Made by a program: the position numbers and the translations under genes
NCBI RefSeq assembly: GCF_002024805.1
Contig: NZ_CP014337.1
Coordinates: 1,240,001-1,304,000, forward strand
Reading direction: 5' to 3'
Source of the DNA: Elizabethkingia bruuniana
GTDB taxonomy: Bacteria; Bacteroidota; Bacteroidia; Flavobacteriales; Weeksellaceae
DNA: 64,000 nt
Part shown: positions 23,927 through 26,664 of the stretch, piece after piece
How the letters are laid out: every line of letters begins with the position of its first letter
Numbering within the stretch: the stretch's first letter is position 1
The notes under the pieces: generated by a model
Told to the model about the DNA's origin: nothing
The model's database searches: none
What the model saw: only the letters and a program-made list of their open reading frames with translations

Positions 23927-25120
23927 ATGATTAGCCCAAAATTTTTAGAGAATCTTCAAAACGAATTGGCACAGATTGATGCTGACGGACTATACAAAAG
24001 AGAAAGAATTATTACCTCTTCGCAGGATGCGGAAATAGTAGTAAATAATAAGACCTTATTAAATTTCTGCGCAAACAACTATTTAGGATTAGCGAATAAT
24101 CCGGAAGTTGTAAAGGCTTCTCAGGCTGCAATGGATACTCATGGATACGGAATGGCTTCAGTAAGATTTATTTGCGGTACACAGGATATTCATAAGAATC
24201 TGGAAAAGAAGATTTCTGAATTTTTAGGAACAGAAGATACAATACTTTATGCAGCATGTTTTGATGCTAACGGAGGGGTTTTCGAACCTTTGTTTACGGA
24301 ACAGGATGCGATTATTTCGGATGAATTAAACCATGCTTCAATTATTGACGGGGTTAGATTATGTAAAGCTGCCCGTTACAGATATAAAAACAATAACATG
24401 GAAGATCTGGAAGCACAATTAATAGCTGCTTCTGAAAAAAATCACAGATTCAAAATTATTGTAACTGACGGTGTTTTCTCTATGGATGGTATTGTTGCTG
24501 ACCTGAAAGGGGTTTGTGATCTTGCTGACAAGTATGATGCATTGGTAATGGTGGATGATTCTCACGCAACAGGTTTCATTGGCAAAACAGGCCGTGGAAC
24601 TCATGAAGCTAATGATGTAATCGGAAGAGTAGACATTATTACATCTACATTAGGTAAAGCTTTAGGTGGTGCTCTTGGAGGTTTCACATCCGGTAAAAAA
24701 GAAGTTATCGATATGCTGCGTCAGCGTTCAAGACCATATTTATTCTCTAACTCATTAGCGCCTGGTATCGTAGGAGCTGCAACTAAGGTATTGGAATTAA
24801 TTTCTGATGATACTTCCAGAAGAGACAGAGTAATGGAAAATGCACAGTATTTCCGTACTAAAATGCAGGAAGCTGGTTTCGATATTCCTGAAGGAGATGC
24901 TGCTATTGTTCCGGTTATGTTGTACGATGCTAAGCTTTCTCAGCAAATGGCTGATAAATTATTGGATGAAGGTATTTATGTAATTGGTTTCTTCTATCCG
25001 GTAGTACCAAAAGGCAAAGCTAGAATCAGAGTACAATTATCTGCTGCACATACACCAGAACATTTGGATAAAGCAATTGCTGCATTCACTAAAATTGGTA
25101 AAGAATTAAGAGTTATTTAA
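23927..25120 (+). CDS. kbl: Glycine C-acetyltransferase (2-amino-3-ketobutyrate CoA ligase)
   Basis: 397 residues, the typical length. It is an alpha-oxoamine synthase of PLP fold type [17 protein letters not shown] near the start, [19 protein letters not shown], and the Schiff-base lysine Lys244 in [14 protein letters not shown]. It cleaves 2-amino-3-ketobutyrate with CoA to glycine and acetyl-CoA in threonine breakdown. No tdh gene is adjacent. The near relatives serine palmitoyltransferase and KBL are hard to separate without alignment; the high overall similarity to Kbl ([21 protein letters not shown]) favours this call. Confidence 0.92.
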
Positions 25121-25144: not shown

Positions 25145-25177
25145 AATCTCCGCAGAAATGTTGGGGATTTTTTTTAT
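25145..25177 (+). terminator. Terminator after kbl
   Basis: AATCTCC pairs with GGGGATT (one G-U), followed by eight T residues. Confidence 0.75.
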
Positions 25178-25232
25178 TCTATTGTTGTAGAATAAAATTA
25201 TTTTACTATTTTTATTCTATTCAAGTAGAATA
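25175..25232. promoter_or_regulatory. Twin inverted repeats TATTCTA-N6-TAGAATA, candidate operators
   Basis: Two copies with perfect 7-bp arms and 6-nt spacers of different sequence: 25175-25194 (spacer TTGTTG) and 25213-25232 (spacer TTCAAG). Their centres are 38 bp apart. The second copy touches the start codon of the first lipoprotein gene, so a bound protein would block initiation. Confidence 0.7.
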
Positions 25233-25687
25233 TGAATAAGCTTTTTTCTTCATTGATTGTGTTAACTTTATTGTTCTCCTGTGGGATCAACAAAAGAGAT
25301 CGTGCAAAGCAAAGGCATGGGTATTGGAATGAAACAAAACCTGTGGCCGGCGGAATGTTAACGAGTAAAGGACGATACCGGCATGGTGAACAAAAAGGGA
25401 AGTGGCTTTATTCCTTTGGAGATACTTTATATCAAAAGGACAAGATCAGGAAGAATATTATTACCACAACTTATTACTATCCGGATAAATTACTGATGGC
25501 TAAAGGGCAGTCCAGACTGGATATAACAAAAGATGGGAAAAGGCATTGGTATAAATTTGGACCATGGCATGAATATGATTCAAAAGGCAATCTACTTTGG
25601 ATTAAATATTACAAAGAAGGCCATTTATACCAGTACCAGGAAGGAGGTATAATGAAATACGATGTGAAGAAATTTTACGGACACTAA
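25232..25687 (+). CDS. Lipoprotein with MORN-like repeats, paralogue A
   Basis: 151 residues. The N-terminus MNKLFSSLIVLTLLFSC is a lipoprotein signal with the acylated cysteine at residue 17. The mature part has MORN-like repeats of the form GRYRHGEQKGKWLYSFGDTLY and FGPWHEYDSKGNLLWIKYY, as in the YwqK-type MORN family. It is a clear paralogue of the next gene (shared RHG.W.ET, KG.W.Y..GD.LY and W(Y)K(F/Y)G(P/V)W blocks). The function is unknown. It is preceded by two inverted-repeat operators and shares a transcript with the next two genes (10-bp gap). Confidence 0.8.
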   Translation: MNKLFSSLIVLTLLFSCGINKRDRAKQRHGYWNETKPVAGGMLTSKGRYRHGEQKGKWLYSFGDTLYQKDKIRKNIITTTYYYPDKLLMAKGQSRLDITKDGKRHWYKFGPWHEYDSKGNLLWIKYYKEGHLYQYQEGGIMKYDVKKFYGH

Positions 25688-25697
25688 ATTTATTAAT

Positions 25698-26189
25698 ATG
25701 AATATTAAAGCTCTACTATTATTGACTGTTTTAACTGTGGTAAGTTGTTCTACCAAATACAATCAATATGATGCCAGACACCAACGACATGGAAAGTGGA
25801 AAGAAACATTGCATACAGGTGATGGAGATATGCTGGCGACAGGTAAATATAGAAACGGAGAAAAAATTGGAAAATGGACTTATAAATATGGTGATAGATT
25901 ATATGAAACGGAGAAATTTAAAAAAGAAACATCAGTAACCAAATCCTATCATTCAAATGGTAGATTATCTGCTATAGGAATGTCCAGGACTAATATTACT
26001 GATCAATACCGGAATTGGTATAAATATGGGGTATGGAAATATTATGATGAAAATGGTAAATTAGCTAAAGAAATTGACTTTAGTCAGGCTGCCAAAGAAA
26101 CAACGAAGGAAGTTGATCAGGCAGGGAACAAAGAACTGCAGGACAACATGAAAAAGATAAATAAAGCATTGAATGGAGGATCGAATTAA
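25698..26189 (+). CDS. Lipoprotein with MORN-like repeats, paralogue B
   Basis: 163 residues. Lipoprotein signal MNIKALLLLTVLTVVSC with the cysteine at residue 17. The mature region carries the same repeat pattern as paralogue A (GKYRNGEKIGKWTYKYGDRLYETEKF, YKYGVWKYYDENGKLAKEIDF) plus an extra charged helical tail of about 30 residues. The tandem pair arose by duplication. Its stop codon overlaps the start of the DNA glycosylase gene by 17 bp. The function is unknown. Confidence 0.8.
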   Translation: MNIKALLLLTVLTVVSCSTKYNQYDARHQRHGKWKETLHTGDGDMLATGKYRNGEKIGKWTYKYGDRLYETEKFKKETSVTKSYHSNGRLSAIGMSRTNITDQYRNWYKYGVWKYYDENGKLAKEIDFSQAAKETTKEVDQAGNKELQDNMKKINKALNGGSN

Positions 26190-26664
26190 TTCATTTCCAC
26201 CTTTTATAGATAAAGACTCAAAAATTCTGATCTTGGGATCCGTACCCGGAGTAAAATCTCTGGAGATGCAGCAATATTATGCACATCCGCAAAATCATTT
26301 CTGGAAGATTATGTTTCATCTGCTGGCTGAACCCGTAACTTCGGATTATGAAGAAAAGGTAGTGATGCTTCAGCGAAATGGAATTGCAGTATGGGATACG
26401 ATAGAAAGCTGTGAACGAAAAGGAAGTAAAGATACCGATATAAAAAATGAAGAAGCAAATGACATTGCAAAACTTTTAAAAGAGTTTCCAAATATAAAGG
26501 TTGTTTTCTGCAACGGACAGAAAGCATTCAAAAATCTTAGTAAACAGCTAAAAAATAAAGAAGTGGGGATTAATTTTTATGGATTACCCAGCACAAGTCC
26601 GCTTCATACTGTCGGATTCGAAAAGAAACTTCCGGAATGGGAACAGATTCTTCATTATCTGTAA
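26173..26664 (+). CDS. DNA-deoxyinosine (hypoxanthine) glycosylase, UDG superfamily
   Basis: 163 residues, matching the small HDG family of the uracil-DNA glycosylase superfamily. The first motif is ILGSVPGVKSLEMQQYYAHPQNHFWKI, and the last, near the C-terminus, LPSTSPLHTVGFEKKLPEW, corresponds to the intercalation-loop motif. It lacks the canonical UNG GQDPYH motif. Expected to excise hypoxanthine, possibly uracil, from deaminated DNA. It overlaps the preceding lipoprotein gene by 17 bp, so it is translated from the same message. A more general Mug-type call is possible. Confidence 0.88.
   Translation: MEDRINSFPPFIDKDSKILILGSVPGVKSLEMQQYYAHPQNHFWKIMFHLLAEPVTSDYEEKVVMLQRNGIAVWDTIESCERKGSKDTDIKNEEANDIAKLLKEFPNIKVVFCNGQKAFKNLSKQLKNKEVGINFYGLPSTSPLHTVGFEKKLPEWEQILHYL

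Follow-up and report, generated by a model that had tools for sequence, protein, structure and literature searches.

The promoter of a two-lipoprotein operon in Elizabethkingia carries twin inverted repeats, which are best explained as operators of a BlaI/MecI-family repressor; judged from sequence comparison, it is quite probable that the paralogue BlaI-1 shuts off the operon through these sites and that an M56 peptidase triggers its release. The dyads are most likely BlaI-type sites because a near-identical site is present at the same place in relatives as well as in front of the repressor's own gene. The window, i.e., the whole 64,000-nucleotide stretch that was analysed, corresponds to G000:C1:1240001-1304000 of a 4.43-Mb Elizabethkingia genome, and in it kbl is followed by an intergenic region of 111 bp with 22.5% GC, the genes for lipoprotein 1 and lipoprotein 2, and a gene of the uracil-DNA-glycosylase superfamily, which is probably part of the lipoprotein transcript (Table 1). 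The two lipoproteins are tandem paralogues with 45% identity (window 25232-26189), and a Pfam search gave no match for lipoprotein 1. The likely terminator of kbl was missed by a simple terminator scan, the loop limit of which was 8.

Table 1 Features of the lipoprotein locus, with positions as numbered in the window
Feature	Position	Strand	Remarks
kbl-like aminotransferase gene	23927-25120	+	Upstream neighbour; synteny anchor for orthologous sites
Likely intrinsic terminator of kbl	25145-25176	+	AATCTCC-N11-GGGGATT, then T-run; conserved; folds at z -2.1
Dyad 1, TATTCTA-TTGTTG-TAGAATA	25175-25194	.	Exact match; putative BlaI-type operator that spans the -33 box
Predicted -33 TTG	25185-25187	+	Inside the dyad-1 spacer; TTG-N19-TATTTTTA
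Predicted -7 box, TATTTTTA	25207-25214	+	Fits consensus TAnnTTTG
Dyad 2, TATTCTA-TTCAAG-TAGAATA	25213-25232	.	Exact match; putative second operator, covering the edge of the -7 box, the start point and the first base of the ATG
Lipoprotein 1 gene, 151 aa	25232-25687	+	Signal sequence with LFSC lipobox
Lipoprotein 2 gene, 163 aa	25698-26189	+	Weak MORN_2 repeat match
Uracil-DNA-glycosylase superfamily gene	26173-26664	+	5' end overlaps the lipoprotein 2 gene

The first-pass annotation had described two perfect 7-bp dyads, 38 bp apart, the second of which abuts the start codon. This description holds with zero mismatches, dyad 2 ending on the first base of the ATG (A, 25232), and the arms of dyad 1 extend further to a perfect 10 bp (TTTTATTCTA-N6-TAGAATAAAA, 25172-25197). 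Exactly two perfect matches to TATTCTA-N6-TAGAATA exist in the genome, both at this promoter. By themselves, the dyads are only mildly improbable in a region so poor in GC, where 2.9% of shuffles contain at least two perfect 7-bp dyads with spacers of 3-8. It is the conservation of the twin pattern at the orthologous place across Elizabethkingia that marks the dyads as non-chance: the pattern recurs there with its 38-bp spacing in all four full-size genomes of the genus, and elsewhere among the 320 family genomes the only twin patterns are two chance-like matches with 3 mismatches each.

Close relatives of the locus occur in E. miricola and E. occulta. The Elizabethkingia genome G004 has the second lipoprotein alone, so lipoprotein 1 has been gained or lost within the genus; the twin sites stand before lipoprotein 2 in that genome, which ties them to the promoter rather than to lipoprotein 1. 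The G004 spacers read TCATTG and CACAAA, compared with TTGTTG and TTCAAG in the window, and the two genomes differ at 5 of 12 spacer positions, 2 of 28 arm positions and 0 of 18 linker positions (Fisher p=0.017 for spacers vs arms). All dyads of both genomes are composed of ATTCTA(C/T) halves, with C in one half of each.

Pattern searches of the window's own genome, with the reversed pattern as control, gave no genome-wide enrichment of the full motif (81 matches with at most 2 mismatches vs 77 for the control) or of TTCTA-N6-TAGAA (14 vs 17), and therefore no large regulon is indicated. Eleven of the 14 TTCTA-N6-TAGAA sites are intragenic; the three intergenic ones are both dyads and a site in the promoter of a serine hydrolase gene. 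Absence of intergenic enrichment together with absence of conservation at orthologous loci had been named beforehand as the outcome that would speak against an operator function. The motif is indeed not enriched genome-wide, but its conservation at the orthologous locus is strong. The earlier proposal of an operator pair bound by a repressor protein thus gains support from conserved arms combined with variable spacers, from placement on a predicted promoter and from conservation at the orthologous locus.

Promoters of flavobacteria have a -33 TTG about 19-21 bases upstream of the -7 box. The -7 box of the primary promoters reads TAnnTTTG and is located at -12 to -5 (PMC9723704). By this consensus, the promoter elements of the lipoprotein operon, TTG-N19-TATTTTTA, lie in and between the dyads, and transcription would start near 25219, inside dyad 2. 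According to the alignment, the -33 TTG is retained in all four Elizabethkingia species despite the change in the spacer that encloses it.

Relatives of lipoprotein 2 are present in 79 of the 320 family genomes. Upstream of 20 of the 25 relatives examined outside Elizabethkingia we find TCTACA(A/T)TTGTAGA, for which shuffling predicts 0.15 occurrences. Its inner arms and N6 spacing are identical to those of the window dyads, a CA..TG core is added, and its position is orthologous to that of dyad 1. In every one of the 29 measured promoters of relatives, a TAnnTTTR box follows the TTG of the site at a distance of 19-22 bases (TTG-N19..22-TAnnTTTR). With matrices derived solely from other genera, dyad 1 takes rank 1 or 2, and dyad 2 rank 5-22, of the 63,981 positions in the window; position 2567, the best hit of one matrix, was rejected as it is inside an acyl-CoA dehydrogenase-like gene.

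Lipoprotein promoters of the Chryseobacterium group (e.g., L069, L070 and L168) have another palindrome directly before the ATG, with a 10-bp stem and a T-run, which encloses the -7 box. This palindrome was considered as a second operator, and dropped in favour of a kbl terminator in view of its T-run and of a stem for which there are two compensated variants, AACAGAATTT/AAATTCTGTT and AACAGGATTT/AAATCCTGTT, related by an A-T to G-C change. Apparently, the terminator of the upstream gene overlaps the promoter of the next gene.

The site outside the genus leads to a candidate regulator. The first-pass annotation knew of no regulator for such a site; this is superseded by the presence of a near-identical site before blaI-blaR1 operons throughout the family, which points to a BlaI/MecI-family repressor. 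Among the 320 family genomes, ATTCTACANNTGTAGAAT is matched in 28, compared with 1 in the reversed control, and each of the 28 loci is either a kbl-lipoprotein promoter or the promoter of a blaI-M56 operon. The looser TTCTAYAWTTGTAGAA is matched in 156 of the 320 genomes; the sites retrieved lie before blaI in 63 cases and otherwise mostly before the lipoprotein gene, the leftovers being mainly intragenic or palindromes read backwards. The two-gene operon consists of adjacent, slightly overlapping genes for Penicillinase_R (PF03965, BlaI) and Peptidase_M56 (PF05569, BlaR1-like). Its promoter has the site on the -7 box, TTG-N19-TACATTTG, in 66 of 68 cases, and in all 59 aligned promoters the site is followed exactly 20 bp downstream, beside the ATG, by a looser dyad, one half of which is near-perfect and of the TGTAGAA type. 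As read from these alignments, the predicted operator layout is that of the window, a pair with the second dyad abutting the start codon. At nearly all of the Chryseobacterium-group loci that were inspected (e.g., L100:212-1429), blaI has a divergent neighbour, a glucose/sorbosone dehydrogenase (GSDH) gene, which may share the blaI operator region.

The Elizabethkingia genome encodes three BlaI paralogues. BlaI-1, the orthologue of Chryseobacterium BlaI (61% identity), is a sequence relative of MecI and BlaI proteins with solved structures; its gene, at G000:C1:3686882 (~3.687 Mb), is unlinked to the lipoprotein operon. Here too a Penicillinase_R repressor stands beside an M56 peptidase. In the blaI-1 promoter, which has one clear site only, TTCTACATTTGTAGA covers the -7 box, TTG-N19-TACATTTG; ATTCTACATTTGTAGA at this promoter has ATTCTA/TAGA arms and the N6 spacing in common with the window dyads. 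In the 497-aa M56 partner PF05569 was the sole domain found, with no recognisable penicillin-binding sensor domain, and for this reason we do not class it as a β-lactam sensor.

All four full-size Elizabethkingia genomes have two copies of TTCTAYANTTGTAGA each (none in the reversed control). One copy is at blaI and the other at the gene of an AmpC-like PF00144 serine hydrolase, and both are conserved across four species of the genus. The hydrolase promoter carries TTCTATATTTGTAGAA at G000:C1:2932559-2932574 (L249), with an imperfect second site 22 bp on. The hydrolase is thus a predicted co-member of the BlaI regulon. A conserved dyad of another type, ACTAA-N4-TTAGT, lies just before the start of the BlaI-2 gene (G000:C1:1579409, L131; likewise L128-L130 and L132), which suggests separate self-regulated BlaI circuits within one genome. 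Copies of TATTCTAGCAGGATAGAATT in two phage-like regions of E. miricola (L047 on G002:C26, and G002:C27:52234), with DNA adenine methylase-like and tail-fibre-like genes nearby, are probably unrelated repeats.

The bla and mec operators of S. aureus and B. licheniformis are likewise inverted repeats over a promoter, and the repressor gene is likewise placed beside that of an M56 membrane peptidase, with apparent self-regulation. The textbook core of BlaI/MecI operators is TACA/TGTA (PMC7253601). This box is present in the sites of the non-Elizabethkingia relatives and at Elizabethkingia blaI, and on one side only in the hydrolase site, whereas the Elizabethkingia lipoprotein dyads retain it only in part: dyad 1 has TGTA on one side and dyad 2 has neither half. 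Unlike in the bla and mec systems, the target is a lipoprotein operon rather than a β-lactamase gene, and the M56 partner lacks a recognisable penicillin-binding sensor domain.

The TACA/TGTA core is not universal for BlaI proteins, because BlaI_0696 of C. thermocellum uses GTCTAT: it binds inverted GTCTAT repeats, two pairs per target, regulates itself and controls a regulon of about three operons (PMC8457756). The GTCTAT half-site resembles ATTCTAT in Elizabethkingia, and both systems have two dyads per target, but the spacing is five bases in C. thermocellum (TCTA-N7-TAGA, vs TCTA-N6-TAGA in Elizabethkingia), the phylum is unrelated and the target genes are different. CopY/CopR repressors belong to the same superfamily, and their operators (RNYKACANNTGTMRNY, PMC7253601) have a 10-base core identical to that in the sites of the relatives; their copper efflux targets and metal-binding C-terminus are, however, unlike the system described here, and the Elizabethkingia repressor reaches 48 bits, far short of the CopY cut-off of 122. 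A reading of the twin dyads as a BlaI-type operator pair is well supported, with the proviso that the strict core is not present at dyad 2. The low matrix rank of dyad 2, the single clear site at the blaI-1 promoter and the existence of two other BlaI paralogues also weigh against this reading.

According to the mechanism that we propose, one BlaI dimer on dyad 1 would cover the -33 TTG and another on dyad 2 would cover the edge of the -7 box, the start point and the start codon, and both would bar RNA polymerase, so that the operon of the two lipoproteins (and the uracil-DNA glycosylase) is kept off. In the staphylococcal system, activation of the M56 peptidase removes BlaI. An envelope signal would similarly activate the M56 partner in Elizabethkingia, upon which BlaI would be cleaved, and its loss would release the lipoprotein operon, blaI-blaR1 and the AmpC-like serine hydrolase together. 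The first-pass annotation regarded a cooperative repressor as the simplest reading. Paired sites are spaced differently at the different targets (38, 22 and 20 bp), a variation that gives no indication of a single, constant arrangement for cooperative binding, and an argument for cooperativity from helical phase was dropped since these spacings fit no single phase.

The dyads could instead be operators of a different dimeric repressor, if the Elizabethkingia promoter left BlaI control and kept the outer arms while the TACA/TGTA core was lost. The pattern of conservation within the genus, in which the outer arms are conserved and the inner core is not, would agree with this, as would the presence of three BlaI paralogues and many other regulators in the genome. 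We nevertheless consider it unlikely, since the orthologous site outside the genus matches the blaI-promoter site perfectly, the outer ATTCTA/TAGAAT arms and the N6 spacing are common to the blaI sites, and BlaI-2 has a dyad of another type at its own promoter.

A function of the dyads as RNA, in the form of 5' leader hairpins that mask the start codon or cause attenuation of transcription, is difficult to reconcile with the predicted start near 25219, which would leave dyad 1 untranscribed and dyad 2 transcribed only in half. A 76-nt stretch does fold better than its shuffles (z -4.6), dyad 2 could fold into a hairpin that extends to the start codon, and the second palindrome in Chryseobacterium combines a compensatory change with a T-run; yet the arms in Elizabethkingia keep their letters with no compensatory change, and blaI promoters have almost identical letters over their -7 box, which makes such a function very improbable. 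That the dyads are functionless AT-rich palindromes which arose by chance beside a terminator agrees with the low GC content, the frequency of such pairs among shuffles and the lack of genome-wide enrichment, but is largely refuted by conservation in four species with changing spacers, and by the cross-genus match both at the orthologous promoter and at blaI; we give it hardly any chance of being correct. The dyads are real and conserved elements that are probably functional operators, and their regulator has probably been identified.

In the open-access full-text literature we found no relevant paper on BlaI in Elizabethkingia, Chryseobacterium or Flavobacterium. In this family the system appears to be undescribed; we regard the lipoprotein operon as a further probable target of a known type of repressor, and not as a new kind of element. 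More tentatively, and with rather less confidence than would make it our expectation, the BlaI-M56 pair may constitute an envelope-stress switch common to the Weeksellaceae, devoid of a known penicillin sensor domain and controlling MORN-type lipoproteins together with the AmpC-like hydrolase, in which Elizabethkingia would have evolved a second, core-less operator that is read via its outer arms.

With the assignment to BlaI, an orphan palindrome gains a probable regulator, and a small regulon is predicted that comprises blaI-blaR1, the lipoprotein operon and the AmpC-like serine hydrolase. Elizabethkingia species are multidrug-resistant opportunists, and regulation has been little studied in the genus; the uncharacterised MORN lipoproteins hereby gain a first functional context, which is probably a response of the cell envelope.
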